A stretch of DNA of 63,586 nt. Origin: Gammaproteobacteria bacterium (GTDB taxonomy: Bacteria; Pseudomonadota; Gammaproteobacteria; Eutrophobiales; Eutrophobiaceae). The stretch is taken from the NCBI GenBank assembly GCA_026710545.1, contig JAPOQU010000114.1, positions 1 to 63,586 of the forward strand, read 5' to 3'. Below the pieces are notes generated by a model. It worked only from the letters and a program-made list of their open reading frames with translations. It ran no database searches and was not told where the DNA came from. Of this stretch, positions 26,433 to 62,181 are shown one piece after another. The translations under genes and the position numbers were made by a program. Position 1 is the first letter of the stretch, and each line of letters opens with the position of its first letter.

Positions 26433-26514
26433 GGGGCAAGTTCTCATATATAAGGAGCCAGAATTGTAGCAGATTGCTACAAACAAGAAAAGAGCTATCT
26501 GATTAAACTATCTT

Positions 26515-27369: not shown

Positions 27370-27390
27370 CGTCAATTCGATCTGTTTTTC

Positions 27391-29223: not shown

Positions 29224-29253
29224 TGGCTCAGTGTGGGGTAAACAACCCGGTGT

Positions 29254-30634: not shown

Positions 30635-31501
30635 TCAACTAGGCATCAGACCCATGTCGAATTGCAGGTGGCTGAACGGCACGGGAATGTTGTACCGGGC
30701 AGCCAGTTCGGCATCCTCGGATTCGGAGTAGTGACCAATCAACGAACTCTTGGTGGCGAATACCGCGTCCGAGTCCAGGTATTCGTCCCCCTCGGAGAAT
30801 ACGTGGGTCGTCAGCGACTCGTAGCCATCTGCTGAAACGATGAAATGGATATGCGCGGGACGCATGGCGTGACGGCCGCTGGCCCGGAGCAATTCACCAA
30901 CGGGCCCGTCTGTCGGTACGGAATATGACAATGGTTTTTCCGTGACAAATGCATAGTTGCCCTCCGTGTCCGTGGTGAATATACCCCGCATATTATCTTC
31001 GGGCATTGACTTATCCTGTACATCGTAGAAACCATTGGCCGCGGTTTGCCAGACGTCCAGTTTGGCGCCGGCTATCGGTTTGCCGTCCGGGTCCACCACC
31101 TTCCCTTGCACCAGTGCGACTTGCTCGGCATACTGCTGTTTTATGATGCTGGCGCCGCTCTCGTACTCCGGCGCGCCAGACACGTAAAATGGTCCCAGTA
31201 CCGTGGACTCCGTCCCCTTGCCCGACTTTGGATGGTTGATCGCATCCACCAGCATGGAGACCCCCATTACGTCCGACAACAGGATAAATTCCTGGCGCTT
31301 GTCATCGCAGGTCTGTCCGGTCCTGGTCAGGAACATGATGGCCTTGAACCATTCTTCTTCCGTCAACTCCACGTCCTTGACGAAAGCGTGCAGGTGCGTG
31401 AGCAGTGAAGTGATGATCTGCCTGAACCTGGGATCATCTGTTTTGGAGCCGTATTCCTCCAGAACGATTTCCGTTAAATTATCGATGGTAAAATCACGCA
31501 T
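30635..31501 (-). CDS. intradiol ring-cleavage dioxygenase (catechol/hydroxyquinol 1,2-dioxygenase family)
   Basis: A 288-residue non-haem Fe(III) dioxygenase that opens catechol-type rings between the hydroxyls to give a muconate-type product. The N-terminal helical dimerisation domain (residues 1-100) contains FLTRTGQTCDDKRQEFILLSDVMGVSMLVDAI, a region close to hydroxyquinol 1,2-dioxygenases. The ferric ligands are Y159 (in NGFYDVQ), Y193 (in PLSYSVPTDGP), H217 and H219 (RPAHIHF). All four are intact. The ferredoxin gene is 22 bases upstream, so they are likely in one transcript. Chlorocatechol versus hydroxyquinol specificity cannot be settled by eye. Confidence 0.9.
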   Translation of the reverse strand: MRDFTIDNLTEIVLEEYGSKTDDPRFRQIITSLLTHLHAFVKDVELTEEEWFKAIMFLTRTGQTCDDKRQEFILLSDVMGVSMLVDAINHPKSGKGTESTVLGPFYVSGAPEYESGASIIKQQYAEQVALVQGKVVDPDGKPIAGAKLDVWQTAANGFYDVQDKSMPEDNMRGIFTTDTEGNYAFVTEKPLSYSVPTDGPVGELLRASGRHAMRPAHIHFIVSADGYESLTTHVFSEGDEYLDSDAVFATKSSLIGHYSESEDAELAARYNIPVPFSHLQFDMGLMPS

Positions 31502-31523: not shown

Positions 31524-31802
31524 TCAGTAGCTGATAACTATATCTTCCAAAGGCGTGACAGAGCACAGCAACACGCCTCCGTTATCGAGATTTGCCGAGT
31601 CAATGGTAGCATACCTTGACAGGGGCCGGAGCGATGTAACGCTGCCCTTGATCAACCGTACACGGCAGGTCATGCAGCGGCCCTGCTGACAGCCGCAGGT
31701 CAACTGGTGCCCGGCCGCGTAAGCAGACTTCAGTACCGAAGATTTCTCCGGACAAAAAAAGTCGGCCCGGCCTTCTGCGGATACCAATGTCACCTTGTAC
31801 AT
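31524..31802 (-). CDS. plant-type [2Fe-2S] ferredoxin
   Basis: A 92-residue ferredoxin with cluster ligands C38, C43 and C46 (CQQGRCMTC) and C80 (VLLCSV), the normal plant/putidaredoxin-like spacing. An extra cysteine sits at residue 36. It is soluble with no signal peptide. Ferredoxins of this size feed electrons to oxygenases or, possibly here, to the reductive-dehalogenase homologue, which lacks a fused reductase domain. No ferredoxin reductase gene is present in the window. It lies four bases beyond the stop of the DUF1329 gene. Confidence 0.9.
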   Translation of the reverse strand: MYKVTLVSAEGRADFFCPEKSSVLKSAYAAGHQLTCGCQQGRCMTCRVRLIKGSVTSLRPLSRYATIDSANLDNGGVLLCSVTPLEDIVISY

Positions 31803-31806
31803 AGGC

Positions 31807-33102
31807 TCAGCGCCCTTTGGCGCGCAACGCCTGCACGGTAAAATCCGTTTCGCCGAACGGCTTCTCGGGCAATATCGCCTTGAATTGCAGGGTAGTGCAA
31901 TGCTGGGCCTGGATATCGATCATGGAAACCGCATCGATGATCGGGACGCCCATACCCCGGTTGGAAGGATGGTGCCGGTCCGGGTGGGAGTAAGCTGCTA
32001 TCGCTACCTTCCACAGGTTACCCGGCTTGTCGAAGATATGGCCGTAAACCGGCAGCATGGTCTGTGTATCCAGGTAATAACGCCGTTTCGATAACGGATG
32101 CTGTTTCCAGTATGGCTCGGCTTCCAGGATATAGGCCTTGCGCACGTGCCAGGTGGCATTCGGAAAACAGTCACCCTTGCCGTGAAAACCAATGAACCTG
32201 AATCCATCAAGCTGCTGGCCTACTTCTTCCAACGGTTGTTCGTCGTGGTTAAAAAATGGCAGCAGGACCCAGGTGACGCCCTTGTAAGTCCATTTCTGGT
32301 CCATGATACGGCCGTTATAGCCGAGAAAGTCCTCTATCATGATATCGCTGCCGAGAAACGCGTCCGTGGTCTGCCCGGATGCCAGGCGCCGGACGCGCCG
32401 GTGGCCGGACAGGTAGAGCCAGACCTGTTCCTGCTTGGTGTCGTCTTCCAGGCGTTGTACCAGCAACTGCGTGCCGCGCAGGTCCGGCGGAGCCAGTACC
32501 TTCAGGTACAGTGCATGGTAAATCTCTGACGGATTTTTAGGCATGGACGGCACCGGTTCCTGTACATGCCTGTGCATGAACTTCAGGGAGCTCGCATAGA
32601 AAGACAACTCTCTTTCTATCTTGTTATGTCTTATATTCCTGTACTGCCAGTAAAAGCTGGCCACCTCGCCGGCGTCGTATGAATAGGTATAACGCAGGTT
32701 CCAGGCCAGTTTATCGCCTGCCCTGGGATCGTCCAGCCGGGGTTCGCGCGGGAACGGCCGGCCTGCTACGTAGTTGCGAATGATCCCCGGTTCATCCCCA
32801 AGTTCGGTTGTATCAATGTACTGTTTCGTCGCCTCAATATAGGCAGGGTGCGTAGCGATGGAAATGGCATCGCCCGTGGTAATGGTCAAAAACTCATCGC
32901 TGATCAGGTCAACGAGTTTCGGCGCAAGAATATGGCTGAATGACGCCACATTGTCTTTTGTAATTACCGTACCGGGCACCGGGTTAAGTGTTGCTATTTT
33001 TTCGTGGTCAAAGGCAAATGACTGCTCGACAACATCCGCCGATAAGATACCTGGATTAATTAACAAGCAGAGAAATAACAGGACGGCGTTTTGAAATGTC
33101 AT
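31807..33102 (-). CDS. DUF1329 outer-membrane-associated protein, copy 1
   Basis: A 431-residue member of the DUF1329 family (LolB-like/LolA-like beta fold proposed), with a signal peptide (FQNAVLLFLCLLINPGILSADVVEQ). Family markers shared with the other two copies are VAGRPFPREPRLDDPRAGDKLAWN, YLSGHRRVRRLASGQTTDAFLGSDIMIEDFLGYNGR, RRYYLDTQTMLPVYGHIFDKPGNLWK and the C-terminal MIDIQAQHCTTLQF. Family members travel with DUF1302 and RND-type genes in catabolic clusters. The molecular role is not established. This copy sits apart from DUF1302, between the HpaB-type and ferredoxin genes. Confidence 0.88.
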   Translation of the reverse strand: MTFQNAVLLFLCLLINPGILSADVVEQSFAFDHEKIATLNPVPGTVITKDNVASFSHILAPKLVDLISDEFLTITTGDAISIATHPAYIEATKQYIDTTELGDEPGIIRNYVAGRPFPREPRLDDPRAGDKLAWNLRYTYSYDAGEVASFYWQYRNIRHNKIERELSFYASSLKFMHRHVQEPVPSMPKNPSEIYHALYLKVLAPPDLRGTQLLVQRLEDDTKQEQVWLYLSGHRRVRRLASGQTTDAFLGSDIMIEDFLGYNGRIMDQKWTYKGVTWVLLPFFNHDEQPLEEVGQQLDGFRFIGFHGKGDCFPNATWHVRKAYILEAEPYWKQHPLSKRRYYLDTQTMLPVYGHIFDKPGNLWKVAIAAYSHPDRHHPSNRGMGVPIIDAVSMIDIQAQHCTTLQFKAILPEKPFGETDFTVQALRAKGR

Positions 33103-34955: not shown

Positions 34956-37190
34956 TCACTTCATCCGGGCCTTGTATTCTTCCGGACTTTCCGCGCTTTT
35001 GTATTTCTGCACCGCAATCTTCCTGTGCAGGATAACCGGTTGTTCCGAGACCGGTGGCGATGCTATGTCTGCCGGATAACAACCCATGGTTTGCTTTTCC
35101 GGATCCATATTCGTGCGCGTCGAAAACTGGCGTCTGTTGGTTCGCTTTGCCGGGATGATATTGCCCTGTTCGTCCGAATCCAGGTCCCACCACCATTTTT
35201 TTACCGGGTTGATCAAACCGTTACCAACCTTGTCATCCAACCTGGCGATCCACTTGCGGGTAAAAGGCAGGTTCATGGCGGCCCACAGGAAAGGTTTCTC
35301 GGCCAATACCCCTTCAATATTCCAGGGGCAGGTCTTCATGCAACGGCCGCACAACGCCCCGGCGGAATTGGTGATACGGTAGCGAGCACACTTTTCCACG
35401 TCCGGCTTCCACATTTCATAGCCGTTGAACATGATCTTGTCACCGTAGGGGATCGCCTGGCACGGGCATTCCCTGGCGCACTTGGTGCATTTCTCACAGA
35501 AATCCTGCAAACCGAAATCTATGGGTTTATCCGGCAGCAACGGCAGGTCGGTCGTGATGATGCCCGATTTGAAACGCGGCCCGACGTACGGGTTTAACAC
35601 CAGTTCGCCAATCCGGCTCAATTCGCCCAGACCGGCTTCCAGTATAATCGGTATATGCAGTACGTCCTGGTCCATCACGCTGTGGCCGCGGGCAGAATAA
35701 CCCAGGGAACGGATATGGGCGCCGACGACACCCCCAATCAATTGCGCGCGCAGGTAAGCGCGCATACTCTGTGCACCGCTGATCCAATCATCCCCGCTGG
35801 CCCCTTCCATGGTCTCGTAACCCTGGTCAACCAAGATTGCGATCCCGTATTTATGGTAGGGCTTTATCTCCGAACCATCCGTATCATGGGAGTACCAGAC
35901 ATAGTCGGGCAACTCACAGATTCCCACCATGTCCGCGCCCATATAATACAGGGCTGCCTTAATCGCTTCGGCGTTCTTCTTCGGGTCGTCTGTCCCTGGT
36001 GCGATTTCATCCGCCTCTTTGCCATATTGCAGCGGGACCATGGCGCCCAGGGGCGGTATCATGGCGTGGCCGTATGGCGACTTGGTGATCATGCGGAAGT
36101 TTTCCAGTTCCTTTTGCGGCTTTTTCCCCAGGTCGCCCAGGGCAGCCCGGAGAAACATGTCATGCCGTTTCGGTATACGCGGCACGTTTGGCTTGTCGAT
36201 AAGAGTCGTGGTGGTTTCCTGCGGTTTCAGATTTTCCATTGGATAAGGCCCCAGGTGAAGCGGCCTGTTTTTGAATAACCTGCCCTTGTAACCGGGCCGC
36301 GCCCCGCCCAATCCCAACCACCAGCCCGGACCATGGGATTTCAGGGAATCCATAAACCCCCTGCCGGCCAGGGGTTCGTCAGCAGCAAGCTCCATAGTCG
36401 TAGAAACCACAGCCATGCCGAATTGATCGCCCAGGTAGGGATTGCGGACAGTACTGCTGCCGTTCCTGCCGTTGGCCTCACCCAGACCGCTGCAAAGCAA
36501 CAGGTAATCAAGATCAATGTCGCTTGCCGTTGCCGTGTGCAATGTTGCTTCAAATCCCAGGAAACGGATGTAATTCACCATCACCGCAGCCGCTTCAGCA
36601 ACCCTCACTGCTGCCCGCTGCGCCTGCGTTCCGACCAGCCAGGCTTCACTCGCAACATCCGGGTCCGGTTCCCTGGTGTACTCGACCAGTAAAACCAGCG
36701 CAAAGCCGTGGTTGAACTCCTTTTTCACGTCCTCCAGGGAACGCTTCCAGGCCTCCTGGCCTTCCCTGACGGTAGTCTCAGCCATTACGTTGGTCGCCGA
36801 CCCGGCCTGGTATTCCTTTTCCTGGGCCTGCGCCAGGGACTCATTGATTATGGGTTCCGCCAGTATCGCCTGTTCCGGAATGGCGCAGGTTGCCGCCATA
36901 CTGACGTCCAGGTTATAGCACCCGGCCTTCAGATGGTCGGCTCGTTCCTGCGGGTCTGACGGAATGGGCGCCTGATTAGGTACAGGATCTCCCAGGCGCA
37001 TGCGATCAAACAGGTCAATATACTCGCGAAACGCTTCTGTCATGGATGCCGGACCGGACGATTCAGTTGTATCCTGGACACGATGTTTCCCGGAGGCCGG
37101 ATATTCAGGCACTGAATCCTGCCGGGCAAGCCGTTCCAGTGGAAACGGCCCCAGGTGCATTGCCCGTTTTTTATGAGAAAAAAGCCGCAT
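34956..37190 (-). CDS. cytosolic reductive dehalogenase-like corrinoid/iron-sulfur protein
   Basis: A 744-residue protein. The C-terminal half (about 340-744) is a complete RdhA-type unit with a corrinoid-binding domain (AQLIGGVVGAHIRSLGYSARGH, IILEAGLGELSRIGELVLNPYVGPRFK). Two [4Fe-4S] clusters follow: C565/C568/C571/C575 (CEKCTKCARECP) and C601/C614/C617/C621 (ending CGRCMKTCPW). The N-terminal half (1-330) looks like a diverged duplicate without cysteines; both halves begin with HLGPFPLE/HLGPYPME and share the YIRFLGFEA...LGEANGRNG...NPYLGDQFG pattern. There is no Tat signal and no RdhB anchor, unlike respiratory enzymes. It therefore resembles catabolic dehalogenases of aerobes but lacks their C-terminal reductase domain. 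Substrate is unknown. Confidence 0.85.
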   Translation of the reverse strand: MRLFSHKKRAMHLGPFPLERLARQDSVPEYPASGKHRVQDTTESSGPASMTEAFREYIDLFDRMRLGDPVPNQAPIPSDPQERADHLKAGCYNLDVSMAATCAIPEQAILAEPIINESLAQAQEKEYQAGSATNVMAETTVREGQEAWKRSLEDVKKEFNHGFALVLLVEYTREPDPDVASEAWLVGTQAQRAAVRVAEAAAVMVNYIRFLGFEATLHTATASDIDLDYLLLCSGLGEANGRNGSSTVRNPYLGDQFGMAVVSTTMELAADEPLAGRGFMDSLKSHGPGWWLGLGGARPGYKGRLFKNRPLHLGPYPMENLKPQETTTTLIDKPNVPRIPKRHDMFLRAALGDLGKKPQKELENFRMITKSPYGHAMIPPLGAMVPLQYGKEADEIAPGTDDPKKNAEAIKAALYYMGADMVGICELPDYVWYSHDTDGSEIKPYHKYGIAILVDQGYETMEGASGDDWISGAQSMRAYLRAQLIGGVVGAHIRSLGYSARGHSVMDQDVLHIPIILEAGLGELSRIGELVLNPYVGPRFKSGIITTDLPLLPDKPIDFGLQDFCEKCTKCARECPCQAIPYGDKIMFNGYEMWKPDVEKCARYRITNSAGALCGRCMKTCPWNIEGVLAEKPFLWAAMNLPFTRKWIARLDDKVGNGLINPVKKWWWDLDSDEQGNIIPAKRTNRRQFSTRTNMDPEKQTMGCYPADIASPPVSEQPVILHRKIAVQKYKSAESPEEYKARMK

Positions 37191-37241: not shown

Positions 37242-37835
37242 TTACCTTTTTTGCAGTCCCAGTTCGCTCAGGTGCTCATGGACGAAATCGATCCGGTCGT
37301 TACCCCAGAATATCTGGTCGTCTATGACAAAAGTCGGCACGCCGATGACGCCGTTCTCCTGTGCCTCGTTCCAGTTGTCATCCAGTACTTTCTGTCTGTC
37401 AGGATCGTTCAGTGCCGCGGTAAATTCATCGGGGTCGAGTCCGGCCTGCCGGGCTATGTCGACCAGGGTTTCGGTCTGCCCGATATCCACGCCCAGGCCC
37501 CACTCGGTATCCATTACCCCGGTAACGTATTCCCGCAAACAGCCTTTTTCTTCGGCCAGCAGGGAGCCTATGCCCGCCGGTGTAGGATCGGTGGTGATAG
37601 GAGGAGGAATACAGGGAATGTTCATCCGTTTCGCCCAGCGGGCCACGTCCTGCCGGGTAAGGGGTATCTTGACCTTGGCCCGCTCCGGGGCCGAACGTCC
37701 GTTCCACCCGGCCAGGGGCCGCCAGACGAAATTAACGCGGTAATCATCCACCAGGCTGAACATCGTCTTGCTGGCGAGATAACAGTAGGGACTGCGGAAA
37801 TTGAAGAAAAACTTTAAATCAACGTTCTGTATCAT
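37242..37835 (-). CDS. DsbA-family 2-hydroxychromene-2-carboxylate isomerase-like protein
   Basis: A 197-residue protein from the ATG at 37835; an upstream in-frame ATG lies in a palindromic repeat and was rejected. The thioredoxin-like N-terminus VDLKFFFNFRSPYCYLASKTMF carries the serine of the isomerase-type site. The C-terminal NGVIGVPTFVIDDQIFWGNDRIDFVHEHL is the cis-proline region (GVPTF) and final helix. Members isomerise ring-cleavage intermediates with glutathione or have DsbA-like roles. With a glutathione transferase at the head of the same locus, a glutathione-dependent step in aromatic breakdown is plausible. Confidence 0.84.
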   Translation of the reverse strand: MIQNVDLKFFFNFRSPYCYLASKTMFSLVDDYRVNFVWRPLAGWNGRSAPERAKVKIPLTRQDVARWAKRMNIPCIPPPITTDPTPAGIGSLLAEEKGCLREYVTGVMDTEWGLGVDIGQTETLVDIARQAGLDPDEFTAALNDPDRQKVLDDNWNEAQENGVIGVPTFVIDDQIFWGNDRIDFVHEHLSELGLQKR

Positions 37836-37851
37836 CGGCTCGAAAATAACC

Positions 37852-37920
37852 GGGGACAGATTTAAATCTGTCCCCAATACACCTGGCGAAATATCCGGGG
37901 ACAGATTTAAACCTGTCCCC
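37852..37920. repeat. two GGGGACAG-family palindromes in tandem
   Basis: Copies at 37,852-37,875 (perfect) and 37,897-37,920 (one mismatch, TTTAAACC) are separated by 21 bases. They fill the space between the DUF1329 copy 2 stop and the isomerase start. Confidence 0.9.
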
Positions 37921-37933
37921 GGTACACTCTATG

Positions 37934-39241
37934 CTACCTTCCGCTCTTGCGCAGGTTCTGCACCGTGAACATCTGCGGCGGGTTCAGGGTCGGGTCAAGC
38001 TGGCCCTTGAACTGGCCGGTGGTGCAGTGCTGGGCCTGCACGTCGTACATCATGAAGCAATTATCGATGGCGACGCCGGAGCCCTTGTTGCCGGGCAAGT
38101 GCCGGTCCGGGTAGGCCTGGCAGATGGAAAAGGATTTCCACAGGTCGCCCTTGCGGTCGAATTCCGCCTGGCGCGGAATGGTGTACGTCTGCGCATCGAT
38201 ATACATCACGCGCCGGCTCAACGGGTGGTTCGGATCCTTCGGCGTCCCGTGCAGTTCATAGACCTTGCGCAGCTCCCATGTGGTCTTGGGAAAACAACCT
38301 TCCACGTCAACGAACTGGTAACCATCGGGTTCCGGCGGCATATCGGTGGCCAGTTCCAGTTCGTCATGGTTATGGAACGGCAGAAAACCGTTCTTGGTGC
38401 CGATATACTCCCAGTTGTAGTCGGAAACGCGGTTGTTGTAGCCTTCAAAGTCCTCGATCATGATATCCGTGCCCAGGAATGAATCCGTCGTCTGTCCCGT
38501 AGCCAGGCGCCGCACACGCCGCTGGAAGCCCAGGTACAGCCAGGCGTCATCCCGCTTCAGGTCGTTCTTGTAGCGGTGGATAAGAAGCTGGGTGTTGGCG
38601 ATGTCGAACGGTTCCAGCGCCCTGACGTAAACGGAACGGAACAACTGGGCCGGGTTATCTGTGAACTCGGGGACCGGGTCCTGGTTAACCCGGTGTTTCC
38701 AGTTGAGGAAATGAAAGCTCCACTTGATGGTGCGCTCCAGTTTACCCGTCTTGGCGTTCCTGAATTTCCAGTAAAACGGAGAGATGGCCGCGTTGTCACC
38801 CCAGTTATAGCCGTACTGGTAGTTCCAGGCCATCTTCAGACCCGCCTGGGGATCGTTGGGATCCGGTTCTGCCGGAAAGGCGCGCCCGGCAACAAAATTA
38901 TCCACCAGGCCGTCAGCGCTGAGGCTGGGCGGGTTGTTTACGGCTTCCATCGTCGCGTTGATATAGCCCGGGTGCAGTTCCAGGGATTCCGTCACCTTGG
39001 TCTGCAACGCAGTCTGGCCGTTTATGATGTGGTCATACAGGGCCGGATCGAGAATATCCTTGAACTGCTCCACGTTGCCCTGGTCGATCACCATGCCGGG
39101 GGTGTATCCCGGAAATTCCGGCGTCCAGTTTTCGTAAGTGTAAAACGAATTTCTTACGTCATCTTCGGTGAAATCAGCCGACGCCGCCAGACTCAGGGCG
39201 AACAGCGGCAGAACGGCGAGATACTTTACATACTTAATCAT
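37934..39241 (-). CDS. DUF1329 outer-membrane-associated protein, copy 2
   Basis: A 435-residue DUF1329 protein with a signal peptide (YVKYLAVLPLFALSLAASADFTED) and GAAGGAGG upstream of the ATG. Family blocks are FVAGRAFPAEPDPNDPQAGLKMAWN, YLGFQRRVRRLATGQTTDSFLGTDIMIEDFEGYNNRVSDYNW, RRVMYIDAQTYTIPRQAEFDRKGDLWK and MYDVQAQHCTTGQF. It lies 30 bases downstream of the DUF1302 gene, the standard arrangement of this pair. It resembles copy 3 (60,675) more than copy 1, for example in VSDYxWEY. The likely site is the periplasm or outer membrane. Function is inferred only from co-occurrence. Confidence 0.9.
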   Translation of the reverse strand: MIKYVKYLAVLPLFALSLAASADFTEDDVRNSFYTYENWTPEFPGYTPGMVIDQGNVEQFKDILDPALYDHIINGQTALQTKVTESLELHPGYINATMEAVNNPPSLSADGLVDNFVAGRAFPAEPDPNDPQAGLKMAWNYQYGYNWGDNAAISPFYWKFRNAKTGKLERTIKWSFHFLNWKHRVNQDPVPEFTDNPAQLFRSVYVRALEPFDIANTQLLIHRYKNDLKRDDAWLYLGFQRRVRRLATGQTTDSFLGTDIMIEDFEGYNNRVSDYNWEYIGTKNGFLPFHNHDELELATDMPPEPDGYQFVDVEGCFPKTTWELRKVYELHGTPKDPNHPLSRRVMYIDAQTYTIPRQAEFDRKGDLWKSFSICQAYPDRHLPGNKGSGVAIDNCFMMYDVQAQHCTTGQFKGQLDPTLNPPQMFTVQNLRKSGR

Positions 39242-39271: not shown

Positions 39272-41428
39272 TTAGAAGCGATAGCGTATCAATATCTGAA
39301 ACTCGTCTTCGTGTTGCGCCATGCCGATGGGGCCGGAATAGAAGCGGCCCAGCGGTTCGTAGCCCCTGTGACTTCCACAACTGGATTCTATGACATAGGG
39401 CGTGGTGCAACCTGGTGCGTTGGTAAAGGGCGGATACGAGTTGCCGGTACGACCGTCATCAGCCATCCGCGGACCGGTGCCCAGCTTGATATTGGCGCCG
39501 ACGATCAGGCGCAGGTGATCGCTGATCAGGTAGTCTATCCCCGGCCCGAGCACGGTAGCGTTGGCCCTGAAGTCATGGCCTATGATCAGGCGCGGCAGAA
39601 TACGATCCTGGCGATAAAAACCCTGGATCAGAAAGGTGCCGAGAAAATCGCTCTCCCGGATCTGGTAACCTACCTGGCGTCCGCTTATCGGATGAGAGAT
39701 TGATTCATGGTCAAGCAGGTGCTGGCCGAAAATCTGTCCCGACAACAGGAAGGTGCGCCTCGGATTCAACCATTTGAAATAGGTAGGCCGGTCCCAGCCG
39801 ATGACCCAGCGCACCACGTCGGACTCGGAAAACAGGCGTTCTTTCGAGGTGTCGGGAAATTCCTCGCCGCTGGTATGGGCTACCTCCACCCGGAACGCGG
39901 ACTTGAGCGGGTCGATGTAAAAGTCGGCGGACGCGCCTACCAGGGTGACCCGCGGAAAGTGTATATCAAATGCCGGCACATATTGCCGCACCCGTAAATG
40001 GCCCGGCGTATCCGTGGGATCAATCGGGTTAAAGCCCAGCGGACAGGCGCCAAATGCCGGACTCCACAGACCCGGTGAAGGCGTGGTCGGCGGACAGAAT
40101 TGCGGGGGGATGAGGTCACCCAGGAACGGGTTGACGCCGGGGATCCCCGATCTCAACGAGGGAAGTTGCGAATAAAACGTCATGGCGTTAACGGAGAAGC
40201 CCACGCTCCTGAACCCGCCTTCCAGCCGCACGCCGCCCTGGTCAAAGTCCCAGCCCGGCAAATGGACATCACGGATGCCGACAACGTGGCGCGGGAAATC
40301 CGTCGCCAGGTTGCCGTCCGGGGCAAGGCCGCCGGCAAAGTTGTTGATGGTGCAACCGTTGTCCCAGCAGTTCTTCAGGGCCCGAAACAGGTCGCCGGCC
40401 AGCAGGATGTTGTAGGGCTGGCCGCCCTGGCCCAGTACATTCGGGCGGAATTTCTCGAAGTTCCAGATCACCTGGAAGTTCAGGTCATCGAAAGCGCCCA
40501 CCGCGCCGGCGCGATACTCGGCGGAGAATATCCCCACGGGAATACGGCTGTCCTCGAACTCCTCGTAGATACTCTGGATGGAAAAGTCGATGGGGTTCAC
40601 CTGGTCCAGCACCCGGAACAGGTCGGTGCGGCCCCAGACCACCTGCTGGCGGCCGATACGGAAGTTGATCTCGTCGCCGTTGTTGACCGGCATGGTGGCG
40701 TCAATATAAATCTCCCGCAGCCAGCCGTGGTCGTCGGTGAACTCGGGGAAGCGCAGGTCGTCCAGGGTCGCGTCCATGTAACCGGGGATGCAACCGCGGG
40801 AATCCACGTTGCAGGGCCGGGTCGGAGTAAAGAGCTCCAGGCCGCCGCCGAACGAACCGTCATTGTTGGTGGAGGCCAGTTCGCTGCCCACCCGCTTCAA
40901 ACCTTCATTGGGATTGACTGTCGTATCGAAACCGAATCCCCCGCCACCGGGCAGGGCCGGTACTCCGGCAGATACCGGTGAGGCGCCCCAGGGGGCATCC
41001 ACGGTAGTGCCGCCCAATGCGTAGGTAACATTGACCACGTGCGGCACGTCATCAGGGCCTATGGCCACGGGTAAATAGACCCCTGAACCGGAACTGGTGG
41101 TCGTGACCGGACCTCCCGAGCGCTTGCCGAATGTATCATCGTTCAGGTCATACACGCCGTCGTAGGTGGCCCGCAGGGTTCCGTGAAAGGATATCTCGGA
41201 AAACAGGCCGGTGGGCTTGAAAATCTTGGACCACTCGACCTGGCCCCGCACCCGTTCCTTGGTAATACCGTAGTCATCGCGGTGATGATAGGTGTTATCG
41301 AGAAAACCGTGAATCGTCAGAGTGCCGTCTTTGGAATTCCATGCGGACACTGTCAGCGGCGTGATGACAAGGGCACATGTGATTGCGCTTGCTAACAGGG
41401 TAAGGCTGAACCTGCGGATATTCATCAT
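39272..41428 (-). CDS. DUF1302 beta-barrel outer-membrane protein
   Basis: A 718-residue protein with a signal peptide (RRFSLTLLASAITCALVITPLTVSAW), ending in an aromatic (ILIRYRF) as outer-membrane barrels do. The N-terminal LTIHGFLDNTYHHRDDYGITKERVRGQVEWSKIF and the central INFRIGRQQVVWGRTDLFRVLDQVNPID are DUF1302 markers. An acidic and glycine/proline-rich stretch (about 100-210) is probably extracellular loops. DUF1302 and DUF1329 genes are regularly linked to MMPL/RND permease genes and to breakdown of hydrophobic compounds. It carries possible operator palindromes in its upstream region (41,471-41,523). Confidence 0.88.
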   Translation of the reverse strand: MMNIRRFSLTLLASAITCALVITPLTVSAWNSKDGTLTIHGFLDNTYHHRDDYGITKERVRGQVEWSKIFKPTGLFSEISFHGTLRATYDGVYDLNDDTFGKRSGGPVTTTSSGSGVYLPVAIGPDDVPHVVNVTYALGGTTVDAPWGASPVSAGVPALPGGGGFGFDTTVNPNEGLKRVGSELASTNNDGSFGGGLELFTPTRPCNVDSRGCIPGYMDATLDDLRFPEFTDDHGWLREIYIDATMPVNNGDEINFRIGRQQVVWGRTDLFRVLDQVNPIDFSIQSIYEEFEDSRIPVGIFSAEYRAGAVGAFDDLNFQVIWNFEKFRPNVLGQGGQPYNILLAGDLFRALKNCWDNGCTINNFAGGLAPDGNLATDFPRHVVGIRDVHLPGWDFDQGGVRLEGGFRSVGFSVNAMTFYSQLPSLRSGIPGVNPFLGDLIPPQFCPPTTPSPGLWSPAFGACPLGFNPIDPTDTPGHLRVRQYVPAFDIHFPRVTLVGASADFYIDPLKSAFRVEVAHTSGEEFPDTSKERLFSESDVVRWVIGWDRPTYFKWLNPRRTFLLSGQIFGQHLLDHESISHPISGRQVGYQIRESDFLGTFLIQGFYRQDRILPRLIIGHDFRANATVLGPGIDYLISDHLRLIVGANIKLGTGPRMADDGRTGNSYPPFTNAPGCTTPYVIESSCGSHRGYEPLGRFYSGPIGMAQHEDEFQILIRYRF

Positions 41429-41551: not shown

Positions 41552-43957
41552 TCAAACCAGGTCTTCAATCTCGTCAATCGTCGAACCGGCGCCTTTTTCC
41601 CAGCGCTCTTCCGCTGCCTGCATAATGAATTTCGGCTTGAAGATATTCACCCACGCCGGCACCAGGAACATGGCGGACGCCATGTTCATGACCAGCATGA
41701 TGATCAAAAGGCGCGCCGCATCGGCCTGGAAACGCAATTCGGAAATAAACACCCACATGATGATACCCCCCACCAGCGTCGTGGCGGTCAGGGCAATGGC
41801 AACACCCGTTGTGGTGACCGCTCGCCGGATTGCGTCCTGGACGTCATCGGCCACATGCATTTCCTCCTTGATGCGATCCATCATGTAAATGGCGTAATCC
41901 ACACCCAGTCCGATACCCACTGCAATCATCGGCACGGTATTGACATTCAGTCCCATGTTCAGCAAGCCCATACAGGCATAGGTCAGGGTGGTGGCGAAGG
42001 TCATGGAGACCAGCATCATGAAACCGGAGTGGAACGAGCCGTAGAACCACAGGGTAAAGGCCAGTATCAGGATCAACACCGCGGGCACCACGATCACGTT
42101 GGTCTCGTAGGCCTCTTCGTTGATGGCCGCGGTCACGCCGACAGGACCGCCGGCCAGGTCGATATGCAAACCTTCAACCTGCTTGCCGGTTGTGTCTATC
42201 CATTCCTTGGCCATGTGGATGGCGCGCCGGATGGTCTCGCCGGTATGGTCCTTGTAATAGAACACCATATTGGCAAGCCGGTCATCGGTATCGATATATT
42301 CCTGCAACGCGCCCTGGGTCGGCGCCGACATCATGAACATGAACAGCAGTCCGCCGATATTCTGGTCGATGGAGGGGATCACCGACCAGCGCGGGTCGTT
42401 GTTACGGGTCATCTGGTTCACCTGCATCAGCAGGTTGTTCACTCCCTTGACCCCGCCCAGCTTCGGGTCCAGCATCATGTGGTTCTGGAAATCGGTCAGG
42501 GCCTTCATGATCTTCGGTTTCTTCAACCCGCCGTTCTCATCGGCGCGGGCGATGATGAACAGTTCCTCGGCCCCCGGGAAGCGGTCGTTTATCGCCGTTG
42601 ACGAAATATTGAAATCATGGTCGTGGTAGAGCAACGGCGAACCCGGTTCAGGCTCACCGATCTGCACCCAGGAACTGAAATACGTGGCGCAAAGAGCAAT
42701 AATCAGGCAGGTGACCAGCACGGCTTTTGAGCGTCCGTGCGTCCCCACAACCCGGGCGAATTTGGGGAAGACGGCACGGGCCATGGTATGCTTCACGGCC
42801 ACGTCTTTCGGCCTGGGCAATTCAGCCAGCAACATGGGAACCACTATCAAGACCGTGACCACCATGCAAACTGCCCAGAACGATGCGTATATGGCCATCT
42901 TGTCGTTGATGGGCACGGAACCCAGCCCGATGAGGTACAGTGCGGAGGCGTCCGCGACGATGGCCAGCGCGCCGGGCCTGAACAAGGCATTGAAGGTGTT
43001 CCGGGCAGCCGGCACCTTCTCCCCGGTACGGGACAGTTCAAGAAAATAGCGTTCCATCTTCTGGATGCCGTGGGACATGGCTCGAGCCGAAATAAGGAAC
43101 GGCACCACCAGCATCAGCGGGTCCAGGTTGTAGCCGAACACTCCCATGAAGCCCACTCCCCAGATACTGGTCAGGATCATGCCCAGCAAGGGCAACAGGA
43201 TGCCGTACAAGCGGCGTGAGTAGAAGACTAAAATCGCCAGGACGATCAGTATGGTATAGAAGAATATGAGCAGGATATCGCCGCTGTAGGAATCCACCCA
43301 GCCCACCAGCACCGGATGACCGGTCGCATGGATCTTCACGCCGGGTGCGGTTTCCTCGGCCCGTATCGCCTGTATCTCCTCAAACACCTTGCCGTAATCA
43401 AGCTGACCTTCATTCAGGGTGCCCTTGATCAGGGCTGATTTCATGTCTGGTGAGACCAGAAGTCCGTATACATTGGTGCTTGCGACCACGTCCCGCTGGA
43501 TCTGCGCCAGTTGTTCTTGCGTATATTTATCGTGATGCGGGTCGTAATAGTTCTGCGAGCGTATTGTCCCATCCGGAGTCAGAAAGATTTTGCGGGTGTT
43601 GCGGTGGGTCAGACTGCTCACCAGGTTGTGGTTGATGTTGGACACGCTGTCCAGCTTCTGGGTGATTCGGTGGATACGGTCCAGGGAATCATCCGTGAAG
43701 ATCGTGCCCTCCTCCACTTCCATGGCCATGACGATGATATTGGCGCCGCCGAAGGTATCGCGGATGCTGTTATGCAGTTGTATATACGGGTGCTCCTGGG
43801 GCAGCAGGTCGGCAAAATCCGACAGCATCCGTACCGCGGGGATATTCCACGCGAACATTGCCGTGATCAAGAAAATCACGGCCAGAACGAATTTTCTGTT
43901 GTTGAACAGGAAATTACCGAAAGTGGGAAAAATCTGGCTGGTATCTGGTTTCATCAT
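41552..43957 (-). CDS. MMPL/RND-superfamily transporter
   Basis: An 801-residue inner-membrane protein of the MMPL/HpnN-like RND branch. It has one N-terminal helix, a periplasmic domain (about 45-220), a block of about five helices (GWVDSYSGDILLIFFYTILIVLAILVFYSRRL onward), a second periplasmic domain, and a second block of helices including PMIAVGIGLGVDYAIYMMDRIKEE. The GxxxD motif in both halves (VVPFLISARAMSHGIQKMERY; GVDYAIYMMDRI) is typical of proton-driven export of lipids or hydrophobic compounds. It is encoded between the YCF48-type lipoprotein and DUF1302 genes, the usual set. Confidence 0.9.
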   Translation of the reverse strand: MMKPDTSQIFPTFGNFLFNNRKFVLAVIFLITAMFAWNIPAVRMLSDFADLLPQEHPYIQLHNSIRDTFGGANIIVMAMEVEEGTIFTDDSLDRIHRITQKLDSVSNINHNLVSSLTHRNTRKIFLTPDGTIRSQNYYDPHHDKYTQEQLAQIQRDVVASTNVYGLLVSPDMKSALIKGTLNEGQLDYGKVFEEIQAIRAEETAPGVKIHATGHPVLVGWVDSYSGDILLIFFYTILIVLAILVFYSRRLYGILLPLLGMILTSIWGVGFMGVFGYNLDPLMLVVPFLISARAMSHGIQKMERYFLELSRTGEKVPAARNTFNALFRPGALAIVADASALYLIGLGSVPINDKMAIYASFWAVCMVVTVLIVVPMLLAELPRPKDVAVKHTMARAVFPKFARVVGTHGRSKAVLVTCLIIALCATYFSSWVQIGEPEPGSPLLYHDHDFNISSTAINDRFPGAEELFIIARADENGGLKKPKIMKALTDFQNHMMLDPKLGGVKGVNNLLMQVNQMTRNNDPRWSVIPSIDQNIGGLLFMFMMSAPTQGALQEYIDTDDRLANMVFYYKDHTGETIRRAIHMAKEWIDTTGKQVEGLHIDLAGGPVGVTAAINEEAYETNVIVVPAVLILILAFTLWFYGSFHSGFMMLVSMTFATTLTYACMGLLNMGLNVNTVPMIAVGIGLGVDYAIYMMDRIKEEMHVADDVQDAIRRAVTTTGVAIALTATTLVGGIIMWVFISELRFQADAARLLIIMLVMNMASAMFLVPAWVNIFKPKFIMQAAEERWEKGAGSTIDEIEDLV

Positions 43958-43993: not shown

Positions 43994-44986
43994 TCAGGAC
44001 TTTTTTTCGTCCGTCAGTTTGTCGATGGAAAAAACGTGTAATACACCACCCGGGCCACTGACAATCAACCTGTGGTCAGGTAAGGTTTCTATACCCCGCA
44101 GGTACAGGCGAAATGTCTGACCATGGTCGACCGGCGTCCAGCCGGTTCCATTGTAACGGAACAGACTGCCTTCACCGCCGACGACAAATATATTTCCATC
44201 GGCGTTCGCCATCGTGTACAGGGTCACCAGGCTGCCGGTCGATTGCACCTGCCAGGTCCGTCCGCCGTCCTCCGTGGCCAGGAGAACACCGCCCAGACCG
44301 GCGACCCAGCCCTTATCCGGATTTTCAAAATACATGCTCTGGGGATAAAACTCATCAGGCATGGGGGCCATGAGTTCCCAGTTGGCGCCGCCGTCCGTGG
44401 TTTTCATTAATGTGCCGAATTCACCGGCGACATAGGCGGTCTGCTCGCCAAAAAACTGGATGTCCGTGTATATAACGTCCTCATCCTGGGAAGATACGGT
44501 CCAGTTCGCGCCGCCGTCCCGGCTTACGGATATGGTGGAAAAACTACCGACTACCCATAACACACCGGCAGGGTCGCACTGGATAGCCTGGGGCGCTTCC
44601 TCGGTCGGGAGTTCGCTTCTGCTCCAGGTCGTGCCGCTGTCCGTAGAGAGCCATACTTCACCCTCAAAGGCCAGGGCGGCAAACAGGCCGTCAGCGCAAC
44701 TGGTGATATCCAGGAATGACGGCCAGGAAGAAATCTCATGGCGCTGCCAGGTTGCCCCACCATCCCGTGATGCAAGGATAAGCCCGGCAGATCCGACTGC
44801 AACAATATTCTCCTGAAAGGCGCTGACCTCCTGGATATTATCCGTCCTGCGTATTGGCGACTGCTCGGTTTTCTGCACTTCGTCCAGTACCAGCGGAGAC
44901 TCACAGCCTGAAGACAGAAGGCAGACCACAGCCAACAGGCAGAAGTTTGCAGTCCTGGTCGTATCTATGATTACGTTATTAAGCAC
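43994..44986 (-). CDS. YCF48-type beta-propeller lipoprotein
   Basis: A 330-residue protein. The GTG at 44986 with AAGGGGAG upstream is chosen because an earlier ATG would lie across a palindromic repeat. A lipobox (VVCLLSSGC) predicts an acylated cysteine and periplasmic membrane anchoring. The mature part is a string of BNR/YCF48 blades: LASRDGGATWQRHEI, LSTDSGTTWSRSELP, VSRDGGANWTVSS, MKTTDGGANWELMAP and ATEDGGRTWQVQS. Proteins of this type accompany DUF1302/DUF1329/MMPL genes and may scaffold the complex. The stop lies 36 bases before the MMPL start. Confidence 0.87.
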   Translation of the reverse strand: MLNNVIIDTTRTANFCLLAVVCLLSSGCESPLVLDEVQKTEQSPIRRTDNIQEVSAFQENIVAVGSAGLILASRDGGATWQRHEISSWPSFLDITSCADGLFAALAFEGEVWLSTDSGTTWSRSELPTEEAPQAIQCDPAGVLWVVGSFSTISVSRDGGANWTVSSQDEDVIYTDIQFFGEQTAYVAGEFGTLMKTTDGGANWELMAPMPDEFYPQSMYFENPDKGWVAGLGGVLLATEDGGRTWQVQSTGSLVTLYTMANADGNIFVVGGEGSLFRYNGTGWTPVDHGQTFRLYLRGIETLPDHRLIVSGPGGVLHVFSIDKLTDEKKS

Positions 44987-45008
44987 TGTCTCCCCTTTAT
45001 AATCAGAT

Positions 45009-45032
45009 GGGGACGGATTTAAATCCGTCCCC
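45009..45032. repeat. GGGGACGG-family palindrome
   Basis: A 24-base perfect palindrome (half-site GGGGACGGATTT), a one-base-per-arm variant of the GGGGACAG family, between xylI-like and YCF48-type genes. The same variant recurs at 48,042 and 48,907. Confidence 0.9.
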
Positions 45033-45047
45033 TTATCCTGAACGATT

Positions 45048-45836
45048 TTAGACCATCCGAAAGCTGACCTTTCCCAGATCCTGAAAACGTACATTAATCG
45101 TGTCGCCTTTGTCCACAGCCACCGCCGCCGTAATTCCCCCGGTCATGATGAATGTCCCGGCAGGGATCACTTCGGAGCGCGCCGCCAGCATATTCGCCAG
45201 CATGGCTACACTGGTAGCAGGGTGACCCAGCACCGCCGCCCCCGCTCCGGTCTCGACCACTTCGCCATTCTTTTCCATAACAACCCCCAGGGTCGGCAGG
45301 TCCACGGCATCCACCCCCCGCATCACGCTGCCGCCGACAAAACCCGCAGCCGACGTATTATCGGCAATGACGCTCTTCAGGTCAAAACGGAAGTTCTCAT
45401 AACGGGAATCGATAATCTCCACTGCCCCGGTGACAAAATCCACGGCTTGCAATACCTGGCCGATATTGCACCCGGGTCCGGCCAGTTCCGATTTGGTCAT
45501 CACAGCCACCTCCGCTTCGATGCGCGGGTGGATAAACGCTGCCGTATCGATCTCCGCGCCGTCGCCATAACTGCCTGCATCCGTCAGGAATCCGTATACC
45601 GGTTCGGACACGCCCATCTGGCGCATCTTGGCCTGGGAAGTCAAGCCCATTTTCAGGCCCGCGGTCCTGCCGCCGCGTTCCTCCTTGCGCCGGCGGATCT
45701 CATACTGGATGGCATAGGCATCCTCCCAGTCCATTTCCGGGTGGTCGTCGGTAATCTTTGTCACCGGTTGCCTGTTCAGTTCGGCGTTTTCGAGATGCTC
45801 CGCCAATTGCCTGATGGTGCTCTGATCCAAGGTCAT
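45048..45836 (-). CDS. xylI: 2-oxo-3-hexenedioate decarboxylase (4-oxalocrotonate decarboxylase)-like
   Basis: A 262-residue member of the hydratase/decarboxylase (FAH-like) family. The ATG at 45836 has GGGAGGT five bases upstream; the frame is open further but only across repeats. TAGLKMGLTSQAKMRQMGVSEPVYGFLTDAG, HPRIEAEVAVM (metal ligands) and VMEKNGEVVETGAGAAVLGHPATSVAMLANML are conserved with the paralogue at 48,103. As last gene in a G-J-Q-K-I order it corresponds to the decarboxylase that removes CO2 from 4-oxalocrotonate. The two paralogues are difficult to tell apart by eye, and the order decides. A hairpin array separates it from xylK. Confidence 0.8.
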   Translation of the reverse strand: MTLDQSTIRQLAEHLENAELNRQPVTKITDDHPEMDWEDAYAIQYEIRRRKEERGGRTAGLKMGLTSQAKMRQMGVSEPVYGFLTDAGSYGDGAEIDTAAFIHPRIEAEVAVMTKSELAGPGCNIGQVLQAVDFVTGAVEIIDSRYENFRFDLKSVIADNTSAAGFVGGSVMRGVDAVDLPTLGVVMEKNGEVVETGAGAAVLGHPATSVAMLANMLAARSEVIPAGTFIMTGGITAAVAVDKGDTINVRFQDLGKVSFRMV

Positions 45837-46065
45837 TGCGCACCTCCCTGTGCGCAACCCTGACGGGCGGCCGTGCACAAATTCGCATGGAGCGAATTTG
45901 AACAGCGTAGCATCAGCGAAGCTGGCCCCGAAGGGGCAAAGTACAGGATGTACTTTGTAAATCGTCTGTCCTGACGATTTGTCATTGCACACCTCCCTGT
46001 GCGCAACCCTGACGGGCGGCCTGCGGCCGTGCAAATCGTCTGTCCTGACGATTTGTCATTGCGCA
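45832..46065. repeat. array of back-to-back hairpins flanked by 11-bp direct repeats
   Basis: Successive perfect stems lie almost without gaps: AAATTCGC/GCGAATTT (45,879-45,899), GCCCC/GGGGC (45,925-45,937), AAAGTACA/TGTACTTT (45,938-45,956) and AAATCGTC/GACGATTT (45,959-45,980, repeated exactly at 46,033-46,054). Shorter stems at 45,987-46,003 and 46,018-46,028 complete the run. GTCATTGCGCA flanks the whole (45,832-45,842 and 46,055-46,065), with a near copy at 45,981. The flanks contain the xylI start and the xylK stop codons. A 40-base direct repeat (45,832-45,871; 45,981-46,020) shows internal duplication. Confidence 0.92.
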
Positions 46066-47096
46066 ACCTTTAGTTCCCGGCGCGCCCGCGCCATGTTCAG
46101 TGCAACGTCCTCTATCATGTCTTCCTGGCCGCCGATGGTCTTCATCTTGCCCAGTTCAACCAGGATATCGCCGGATGGGATCCTGTATTTTTCACCGACC
46201 CGCTTGGCGTGCAGGAGAAAGGAAGAGTACACACCGGCATAACCCATGATCAGTGAATCGCGGTCAACCCGGATCAACTGGTCCATGATGGGTACGACCA
46301 CGTCCTCTGCCACGTTCATCAACTTGAAGACATCGACACCCGTCTTGACGCCCATGCGGTCCAGTACCGCGTTGAACACTTCCAGGGGTGTGTTGCCGGC
46401 GCCGGCGCCCAGACCTGCGGCGGAACCGTCGATGCGGTCAGCCCCGGCCTCAATGGCAGCCAGTGAATTGGCGATTCCCATCGCCAGGTTGTGGTGGCCG
46501 TGAAAACCGATCTCGGTATCCTTTTCCAGCCCCGCGCGCAGCGTCCCGATGCGCGCGGAAACGTCATCGGGAAGCATATAACCGGCCGAGTCCGTGCAGT
46601 AAATACAGTTGGCGCCGTAGGCTTCCATCAGTTTGCCCTGTTCCAGCAACTGTTGCGGCTCCACCATGTGCGCCATCATCAGGAAGCCCACCGTATCCAG
46701 CCCAAGCTGGCGCGCGGAACTGATATGTTGCTCGGACACGTCCGCTTCCGTGCAATGGGTAGCCACGCGAATGGTGTGCACACCACAGTCACGGGCCATG
46801 TTCAAGTGATCCACGGTGCCGATACCAGGCAACAGCAGGGCCGACACTTTTGCATTTTTCATGCGCGGCACCACCGCCTGCAGGTAGTCCTCATCGGTAC
46901 TGGCAGGAAAACCGTAATTGATCGAGGCGCCGCCCAGTCCGTCGCCATGGGTCACTTCTATCAGGTGAATACCGGCATCATCCAGTGCAGAAGCGACGCT
47001 CACCATCTGTTCAGTGGTGATCTGGTGACGCTTGGCGTGCATGCCGTCACGCAGACACATATCGTGCAGTTTGACTGTCTTTCCCGTCAGGTCCAT
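46056..47096 (-). CDS. xylK: 4-hydroxy-2-oxovalerate aldolase
   Basis: A 346-residue DmpG/BphI-type aldolase that splits 4-hydroxy-2-oxovalerate into pyruvate and acetaldehyde. The N-terminal [19 protein letters not shown] holds the catalytic Arg-Asp pair. Further markers are [34 protein letters not shown] and the metal-binding [44 protein letters not shown], then the C-terminal dimerisation region that channels acetaldehyde to the partner dehydrogenase. The partner gene is 16 bases upstream. Length is normal. The stop falls in an 11-bp repeat that also contains the xylI start. Confidence 0.92.
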
Positions 47097-47112: not shown

Positions 47113-48021
47113 TCACGCGTTTACCGCTGCCTGGCGCAACGTCCCGTTGATCATTTCCTCGGCCAGCATCTCCCCGGTTCGTAATGCCGCGGCGGTCATG
47201 ATATCAAGGTTGCCCGCGTATTCCGGCAGGTAGTCACCCAGTCCTTTGACCTCCATGAAGATGGACACGCGCCGCCCGTCAAACACGGGGCCATTTTTCA
47301 ACCGGTAACCGGGCACGTACTTCTGCACCTCCCCGATCATCTCGCGAACAGAACCGGTAATCGCTGCTTCGTCGGGTGTATCTTCCGTCAGGCAATGGAT
47401 GGTGTCACGCATAATCATGGGCGGTTCGGCCGGGTTGAGGATGATGATTGCCTTCCCCTGTTTTGCGCCGCCGACACGTTCTATCCCGTTGGCCGTGGTG
47501 CGGGTGAACTCATCGATGTTTTTACGGGTGCCGGGCCCGGCGGATTTTGACGCCACCGTTGCCACGATCTCCGCGTACTTCACCGGCTGGACCCTGCTCA
47601 CTGCCGCCACCAGGGGGATCGTGGCCTGGCCGCCGCAACTGACCATGTTCACGTTGGTTTCCTGCCTGCCTATGTGCTCCTGCAGGTTGACGGGAGGCAC
47701 ACAGTAAGGGCCTATAGCCGCCGGTGTCAGGTCGACCACCAGTACGCCACGCTGCTCAAGTTTCCTGGAGTTTTCCGGATGTACGTAGGCGGACGTCGCA
47801 TCAAAGGCGATTTTGACATCGTCTGTTTCGATATGGTCAAGCAACGCATCGACGCCTGCATGGGTGGTTTTCAACCCGCTCTGCCTCGCCTTTGCCAGGC
47901 CGTCGGAGTCCGGGTCAATCCCTACCATCCATACCGGGTTAACCCAGTCACTGCGCAGCGCCTTCATCATCAGGTCCGTTCCGATGTTCCCGGAACCGAC
48001 CAGGGCAGCATTCACTTTCAT
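47113..48021 (-). CDS. xylQ: acetaldehyde dehydrogenase (CoA-acylating)
   Basis: A 302-residue DmpF/BphJ-type enzyme that converts acetaldehyde, CoA and NAD+ to acetyl-CoA. The ATG at 48021 with GAGG upstream is chosen; an earlier in-frame ATG would cross a palindromic repeat. The Rossmann loop [20 protein letters not shown], the catalytic cysteine in [21 protein letters not shown] and the terminal block [25 protein letters not shown] are intact. It is coupled to the aldolase gene downstream, with which homologues form a channeling complex. Confidence 0.92.
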
Positions 48022-48041
48022 ATCAATAGCCTCGAGTGTAA

Positions 48042-48089
48042 GGGGACGGATTTTAAATCCGTCCCCGGAGATTGCAAAATCCGTCCCCG
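48042..48089. repeat. GGGGACGG-family palindrome plus half copy
   Basis: A palindrome with one extra T in the centre (48,042-48,066) is followed by a right half-site AAATCCGTCCCCGGAGATTG, which occurs directly after it as a near repeat. It lies between xylJ-like and xylQ genes. Confidence 0.85.
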
Positions 48090-48102
48090 GAGATTGAACC
48101 AA

Positions 48103-62140: not shown

Positions 62141-62181
62141 GGAGACACAGATTATTTCATAGCAGTACTATTTGTGTCTCC
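62141..62181. terminator. possible hairpin at the 3' end of Rieske copy 2
   Basis: GGAGACACA (62,141-62,149) and TGTGTCTCC (62,173-62,181) form a nine-pair stem with a 23-base loop that contains the stop codon of the minus-strand Rieske gene. There is no clear U-run. A bidirectional terminator for convergent genes is plausible. Confidence 0.4.

Follow-up and report, generated by a model that had tools for sequence, protein, structure and literature searches.

A catabolic reductive dehalogenase homologue of the NpRdhA/BhbA type in an aromatic-oxygenase locus of a gammaproteobacterium

Contig JAPOQU010000114.1 of the gammaproteobacterial assembly GCA_026710545.1, analysed here over its whole 63,586 nucleotides (the window), carries a gene for a reductive dehalogenase homologue, rdhA, among genes for aromatic oxygenases. 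This locus raises the question of which reaction the protein would catalyse, which pathway its product would enter, and where its electrons would come from. The reading judged probable here is that of an ortho-halophenol dehalogenase related to NpRdhA (Nitratireductor pacificus) and BhbA (Comamonas sp. 7D-2), which would deliver phenol to meta-cleavage and depend on an outside electron donor.

The gene starts with an ATG at 37190 and reads down to 34956 on the minus strand (744 codons, with the stop included in the coordinates). Its product scores 206 bits against TIGR02486 (reductive dehalogenase; cut-off 160), and phmmer matched residues 1-104 and 160-744 to NpRdhA (structures 4ras and 6zxu; E-value 2e-175; about 44% identity), followed among solved relatives by PceA (5e-27) and then, weakly, by QueG (0.02). 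The full-length AlphaFold2 (AF2) model (predicted local distance difference test, pLDDT, 81.3; predicted template modelling score, pTM, 0.89) superposes on 6zxu with a Z-score of 40.4 over 676 residues (root-mean-square deviation, rmsd, 2.5). Homology and fold are established, and the domain order is that of NpRdhA: a vestigial N-terminal copy, a catalytic corrinoid domain and a double [4Fe-4S] domain, with no reductase.

RdhA can be assigned with high confidence, from its sequence features, to the cytosolic catabolic reductive dehalogenase homologues of the NpRdhA/BhbA type, the class that a preliminary description of this DNA had proposed and that the NpRdhA match, the catalytic residues and the trees bear out. 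No twin-arginine motif was found in residues 1-45, and no membrane-like stretch in a scan of 19-residue windows, in line with the cytosolic location given there. The protein ends at residue 744, as against 1069-1134 amino acids in its fused relatives, five of which measure 1069-1074, and it was likewise right to deny it a C-terminal reductase. Respiratory enzymes, PceA included, share the corrinoid/[4Fe-4S] fold (Z-scores of 18-19 over the C-terminal half), whereas RdhA lacks the motif for twin-arginine translocation (Tat), has an extra vestigial domain and carries a lysine at a position that is arginine in both respiratory rows examined. Pfam and NCBIfam models recognised no RdhB among the neighbours, no search with an RdhB-specific model having been made, and no relative of RdhA was found in phage records.

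The internal duplication proposed in the same description is equally well founded. Every segment pair quoted there is present in both halves: HLGPFPLE (12-19) with HLGPYPME (312-319), YIRFLGFEA (207-215) with HIRSLGYSA (492-500), SGLGEANGRNG with AGLGELSRIGE, and NPYLGDQFG (250-258) with NPYVGPRFK (533-541). When the profile of residues 1-305 was compared with that of residues 306-744 by hhalign, 229 columns were aligned (E-value 2.5e-43, probability 100%), against probabilities of 0.2% and 0.38% in two reversed controls; both half-profiles were made from a family alignment of 85 rows (the window protein, NpRdhA, 79 loci of one scan and four paralogues). By this comparison the two halves of RdhA are homologous. 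Modelled alone by AF2 (pLDDT 79.6, 27 sequences), residues 1-305 adopt the corrinoid-domain fold, with Z-scores of 25.7 against the N-domain of NpRdhA, 15.7 against PceA (230 residues, rmsd 4.7), 11.8 against QueG and 7.2 against the B12 chaperone MMACHC. The columns of the catalytic Tyr and Lys read Ala194 and Gly258 in this half, and over the whole 85-row alignment these first-half columns are chiefly Asp/Ala/Glu and Gly/Ala/Ser; with both residues lost, the N-terminal half is a dead corrinoid-domain copy, which would mimic the partner subunit of the respiratory dimer. It differs from the NpRdhA counterpart by a 48-residue insert (110-157), which is present, whole or mostly, in 11 of the 12 unfused relatives examined and also in the fused paralogue L089. 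The duplication is not new, since PMC10463259 already gives a vestigial N-terminal duplicate as a trait of the catabolic RdhA family. The earlier statement that such a copy had been described for one enzyme stands, and the trait is not peculiar to the window protein.

The eight cluster cysteines (C565, C568, C571, C575, C601, C614, C617 and C621) are confined to the second half, as had been noticed from the letters; seven of them are found in 85/85 rows and the eighth in 84/85. All catalytic residues of NpRdhA are kept: S422, Y426, K488 and R552 align with S475, Y479, K541 and R605, and the equivalents of Tyr426, Lys488 and Arg552 occur in every one of the 85 rows, that of Ser422 in all but one. 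The roles of these residues in the halophenol site are set out in section 3.3 of PMC7565698. By analogy with NpRdhA, from which we infer cofactor binding and activity, cobalamin would be bound base-off in the C-terminal half together with two [4Fe-4S] clusters, an ortho-halophenol would ligate the cobalt through its halogen, S475, K541 and R605 would hold the phenolate, and the proton would come from Y479, paired with K541. RdhA is very probably a soluble vitamin-B12 enzyme that dehalogenates phenols in an oxygen-respiring bacterium, the four matches to COX1 (haem-copper oxidase) in the genome arguing for the aerobic lifestyle of the host. Ortho-halophenols are a fair prediction of its substrate, and most likely it would turn them, probably as bromophenols, into phenol.

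Phylogeny refines this assignment. A quick tree of 96 rows placed RdhA in a 20-row clade (Shimodaira-Hasegawa-like approximate likelihood-ratio test, SH-aLRT, 98), with the respiratory and the short single-domain rows far outside on long branches; a careful tree of 45 rows, built without the distant rows, placed it in a 17-row clade (support 95/93). In both, RdhA falls within the catabolic RdhAs, and one row, L016, changes place between them. RdhA is separate from the QueG clade and from the respiratory one, in keeping with the preliminary description; neither of the outcomes named there as refuting it, a place in a non-dehalogenating corrinoid clade and a first half that does not superpose on the second, was observed. 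The 17-row clade also holds the self-sufficient RdhAs (JtRdhA type) and BhbA, all seven reductase-fused enzymes forming one group (100/100), and NpRdhA sits elsewhere in the 45-row tree. Because it shares a clade with all fused rows, the window RdhA is placed, inside catabolic RdhA, as an unfused relative of the BhbA-type self-sufficient enzymes. It differs from BhbA in having no fused phthalate-dioxygenase-type reductase (PDOR), and resembles it in that BhbA, too, is encoded in an aromatic-oxygenase cluster. Both halves are kept by purifying selection, the N-terminal half more loosely: the ratio of nonsynonymous to synonymous substitution rates (dN/dS) is 0.04-0.07 for the C-terminal and 0.09-0.15 for the N-terminal half (six pairs, four orthologues), rough values in that several dS exceed 1 and the genomes are few and closely related.

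Which pathway, then, would RdhA feed? The window encodes DmpC/E/F/G/H-type enzymes, all five above their NCBIfam equivalog cut-offs (Table 1), and none of its genes was identified as a catechol 2,3-dioxygenase. Elsewhere in the genome, on contig C39, phenol hydroxylase subunits (dmpK/L/N/P-type), a 2Fe-2S/FAD (flavin adenine dinucleotide) reductase and a ferredoxin are followed by a catechol 2,3-dioxygenase (428 bits, cut-off 320). This is the gene set of dmp-type phenol meta-cleavage, with the differences that it is spread over two contigs and that, in the reading favoured here, a reductive dehalogenase precedes it. In locus L013, whose RdhA is 65% identical to that of the window, one 22-kb stretch holds a XylR-type regulator, phenol hydroxylase subunits, a 2Fe-2S/FAD reductase, rdhA and then a catechol 2,3-dioxygenase (439 bits, cut-off 320), followed by lower-pathway genes like those of the window (semialdehyde-dehydrogenase-like and MMPL). 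Among 58 genomes, phenol hydroxylase occurs in 5/5 with an rdhA orthologue of more than 80% identity and in 3/53 without one (Fisher p 1e-5). The C39 genes, the gene order of L013 and this co-occurrence point to RdhA as the first step of phenol meta-cleavage, and phenol is predicted as its product with moderate confidence. It would be oxidised by the multicomponent phenol hydroxylase encoded on C39 and then by catechol 2,3-dioxygenase, and the DmpC/E/F/G/H-type enzymes of the window would complete the route; the HpaB-type hydroxylase and hydroxyquinol-type dioxygenase encoded near rdhA would probably form a second or side branch for para-substituted phenols. A literature search over titles and the openings of abstracts, with most subscription papers outside its coverage, returned no RdhA in a phenol-hydroxylase locus and no catabolic RdhA in sponge bacteria.

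Several observations weigh against this reading. Five pocket residues of NpRdhA are replaced in RdhA (F290M, F310M, P311I, A419G and N452V), and K307, which forms a salt bridge to benzoate in one NpRdhA complex, is a leucine, so that the substrate may differ from that of NpRdhA; the same replacements may suit a neutral phenol better than benzoate. The five co-occurrence genomes belong to one genus, of which a sixth genome has the hydroxylase without this rdhA, and the 5/5 count is therefore not an independent test. The assembly (4.43 Mb, 100% complete) is divided into 129 contigs. The genome yielded no match to cobyric acid synthase (TIGR00313), so that the corrinoid is probably salvaged and would need import. 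Oxygen tolerance is drawn from the family, and it is not to be assumed, since a marine Roseobacter debrominase is reported in PMC13101508 to be highly oxygen-sensitive. Finally, the oxygenases linked to rdhA in the genus of the window are HpaB and hydroxyquinol dioxygenase, in 3/3 syntenic loci, and not phenol hydroxylase, so that the product of RdhA is possibly not phenol.

This last point leads to a different pathway, in which a bromophenol would be debrominated and then converted by HpaB and hydroxyquinol 1,2-dioxygenase, via hydroxyquinol, to maleylacetate, the dmp genes serving other substrates. We regard this as a possible, tentative explanation. The order rdhA-hpaB-DUF1329-intradiol dioxygenase recurs in all three nearest loci (L009, L010 and L018) with 76-95% identity per gene, the four genes examined are under purifying selection, and L010, the nearest complete chromosome, has a second HpaB and two further intradiol dioxygenase copies directly after the operon, as if amplified (L010:16268-19955). 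The dioxygenase itself is closest to hydroxyquinol enzymes (290 bits to PnpC, 3n9t; 239-263 to hydroxyquinol entries; 156 to the best catechol 1,2-dioxygenase). HpaB, however, is nearest among solved structures to 4oo2, with HpaB entries (4-hydroxyphenylacetate 3-monooxygenases) next, and not to 3hwc (91 bits), which we take to be TftD, chlorophenol 4-monooxygenase; its 670 bits against TIGR02310 (4-hydroxyphenylacetate 3-monooxygenase; cut-off 885) indicate family resemblance only. Moreover, no maleylacetate reductase is found among the annotated genes of the window, no genome-wide search for one having been made, and the rdhA genes of L013, L033 and L072 have no HpaB inside the flanks examined. 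Flavin reductase genes that could belong with HpaB are unlinked (PF01613 matches on contigs C125 and C11).

Under the preferred reading as a phenol-forming dehalogenase, we infer that electrons would come from an outside ferredoxin or reductase, without a conserved gene beside rdhA. According to PMC10463259, NpRdhA's own partner proteins failed in vitro and the natural electron supply of unfused enzymes is unsolved. A split reductase of the phthalate-dioxygenase type was sought near rdhA by BLAST of the BhbA and Aminobacter C-termini against all open reading frames of 92 loci and was rejected: besides fused proteins (L034 and L089/L002, the last two being one gene), the search returned only the Dmp-type reductase of L013 and the PaaE of L091. 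In L013 that Dmp-type reductase adjoins rdhA, and it has a counterpart on C39 of the window genome.

A 2-oxoacid:ferredoxin oxidoreductase of the KorAB type, delivering low-potential electrons via a ferredoxin, is a rather improbable donor that nevertheless has genomic evidence in its favour. The pair korA-korB lies directly upstream of rdhA in L033 (L033:6958-12223; about 70 bp) and in L072 from Pseudomaricurvus alkylphenolicus (L072:6535-12274), and the two korA products reach 649 and 664 bits against TIGR03710 (cut-off 483), whereas korB stays under its subfamily cut-off (245 and 238 bits versus 262). The same korA subfamily (65-100% to that of L033) is present in 6 of the 14 genomes with a window-type RdhA, the window's own (C95) among them, and in 0/18 other genomes tested, a count biased in its favour because one of these 14 supplied the query. 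The korAB genes of the window genome are unlinked to rdhA, and G007 (97% complete, with an 83% rdhA orthologue) has no korA match. A clear one-to-one linkage of KorAB and RdhA was not found, G005 and G007, both of the window's genus, having an rdhA orthologue without korA.

The preliminary description had named another partner, the 2Fe-2S ferredoxin encoded at 31524-31802, which now appears distinctly unlikely as the donor. It is plant-type, its gene lies 4 bp from the DUF1329 gene in the same codirectional run, and spinach ferredoxin feeds electrons to NpRdhA according to PMC7565698 and PMC10463259. In the three syntenic relatives (L009, L010, L018), whose gene order is otherwise equal, DUF1329 and the ring-cleavage gene have nothing between them, however, and their genomes contain no orthologue, the only matches being of 27-37% to PDOR-like or separate ferredoxin frames; the protein could serve some other oxygenase. 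As a conserved partner it is ruled out as a general rule. Least probable of all is that RdhA is a corrinoid reductase without dehalogenation, QueG-like or another reductase of the RdhA fold, for although QueG has the same fold (Z-score 11.9 against the full model), the QueG model TIGR00276 gives 27 bits against a cut-off of 200, on which, with the tree position, a QueG-like function was rejected, the residues binding halophenol are retained, the short single-domain outgroup rows lie far outside the clade of RdhA and the gene context is halophenol-like.

Table 1. Coordinates of rdhA, its two halves and the neighbouring genes in the window
Feature	Coordinates	Strand	Basis
rdhA, catabolic reductive dehalogenase homologue, 744 aa, without reductase fusion	34956..37190	-	phmmer, TIGR02486, AF2 model
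N-terminal vestigial corrinoid-domain copy, residues 1-305	36276..37190	-	hhalign; AF2 of the half alone; Tyr/Lys replaced
C-terminal catalytic corrinoid domain and double [4Fe-4S] domain, residues 306-744	34956..36275	-	S475, Y479, K541, R605 and eight Cys
HpaB-type flavin-dependent phenol hydroxylase, oxygenase component, 525 aa	33164..34741	-	PF11794/PF03241; TIGR02310
DUF1329/LolA-like protein	31807..33102	-	PF07044; syntenic in L009, L010, L018
Plant-type [2Fe-2S] ferredoxin, 92 aa, among tested genomes particular to this one	31524..31802	-	PF00111
Intradiol dioxygenase, hydroxyquinol 1,2-dioxygenase kind	30635..31501	-	PnpC 3n9t
DsbA-fold, 2-hydroxychromene-2-carboxylate isomerase-like	37242..37877	-	PF01323; 2imd E 3e-17; syntenic
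DUF1329 protein	37934..39241	-	PF07044
DUF1302 protein	39272..41428	-	PF06980
MMPL transporter	41552..43957	-	PF03176
BNR/YCF48-like protein	43994..45094	-	PF14870
2-oxo-3-hexenedioate decarboxylase (DmpH type)	45048..46034	-	TIGR03218 424 bits, cut-off 351
4-hydroxy-2-oxovalerate aldolase (DmpG type)	46056..47096	-	TIGR03217 545, cut-off 286
Acylating acetaldehyde dehydrogenase (DmpF type)	47113..48102	-	TIGR03215 468, cut-off 282
2-oxopent-4-enoate hydratase (DmpE type)	48103..48894	-	TIGR03220 426, cut-off 409
2-hydroxymuconic semialdehyde dehydrogenase (DmpC type)	48940..50430	-	TIGR03216 856, cut-off 693

The genes from 51669 to 30635 are codirectional (Table 1), and the HpaB-type hydroxylase and the dioxygenase of the hydroxyquinol kind both follow rdhA in this run, in agreement with the description of the region as an oxygenase locus. 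Synteny with L009 and L010 covers the block bounded by the DmpG and dioxygenase genes; with the short locus L018 it covers the part that begins at the isomerase-like gene and ends at the dioxygenase. Predicted promoters and terminators are no commoner than in shuffled sequences (7 versus 9.0 and 12 versus 12.4), and the operon limits therefore rest on spacing and direction alone. Elsewhere in the window, a TypA gene sits between genes for a 2-methylfumaryl-CoA isomerase-like protein (TIGR04253 544 bits, cut-off 725) and for a FAS1-like dehydratase (26515-30477), which in L010 are adjacent to each other; a small zeta-toxin-like kinase gene lies next to a ParD-like antitoxin gene (25441-26486); and a Rieske oxygenase with a weak 4beta-methylsterol monooxygenase match (98 bits, cut-off 600) is encoded at 62152-63225.

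RdhA is one of five NpRdhA-type proteins in this genome, the others being encoded on C4 (1115 aa, fused, and 716 aa), C19 (735 aa) and C47 (733 aa). The five lie far apart in the 45-row tree, and recent gene duplication is not supported as their source. Proteins of this type occur in 14 of the 58 genomes, the window's own included, all of one family. The C47 paralogue adjoins paaA, paaC, paaD and paaE (phenylacetyl-CoA epoxidase) and the repressor gene paaX (L091:3311-10531; G000, contig C47); these paa genes all exceed their NCBIfam cut-offs, the arrangement recurs in L052, and it suggests halogenated phenylacetates as substrates. On C4, the 716-aa paralogue is followed by an arylsulfatase-like gene, with TonB-receptor genes nearby (L088:11698-15348). 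Contig C44 encodes a 324-residue single-domain RdhA homologue without a vestigial half (L092:5730-6701), nearest among solved structures to the catalytic half of NpRdhA (E-value 3e-34) and below the TIGR02486 cut-off (124 bits versus 160), in which the Tyr is retained and an Arg replaces the catalytic Lys; several genomes of the same family hold several such homologues of about 320-400 residues with similar positions. The 1077-residue N-terminal extension of L037 matched no Pfam family. Metagenome bins, named for instance RHO3_bin_19, IRC4_bin_37 and APA_bin_4, make up several of the nearest records; PMC8163846 describes bins of the sponges Rhopaloeides odorabile, Ircinia ramosa and Aplysina aerophoba, and RHO3, IRC4 and APA presumably stand for these three.

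Enzymes of this type, with a dead duplicated front half, are known already. The novelty lies in one more unfused member close to the origin of the fused enzymes, in its setting within phenol meta-cleavage and in a set of candidate electron sources. As an unfused relative of the fused enzymes, the window RdhA opens the fusion step to comparative study; the locus and its relatives offer KorAB and the Dmp-type reductase with its ferredoxin as candidate partners; and the context in L013, with phenol hydroxylase and catechol 2,3-dioxygenase beside rdhA, gives a concrete substrate prediction. Catabolic reductive dehalogenases, which work in air, are candidates for the clean-up of brominated phenols. 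A more speculative and rather improbable extension is that the host is an oxygen-respiring dehalogenation specialist, with five deeply diverged catabolic RdhAs, several of them tied to differing oxygenase pathways (the window enzyme to phenol/hydroxyquinol, the C47 enzyme to phenylacetyl-CoA epoxidase, besides the fused NAD(P)H-driven and arylsulfatase-linked enzymes on C4), the unfused ones being powered by a 2-oxoacid:ferredoxin oxidoreductase or by shared oxygenase reductases. If true, there would be an aerobic route for natural bromophenols that begins with reduction, possibly among bacteria associated with sponges.

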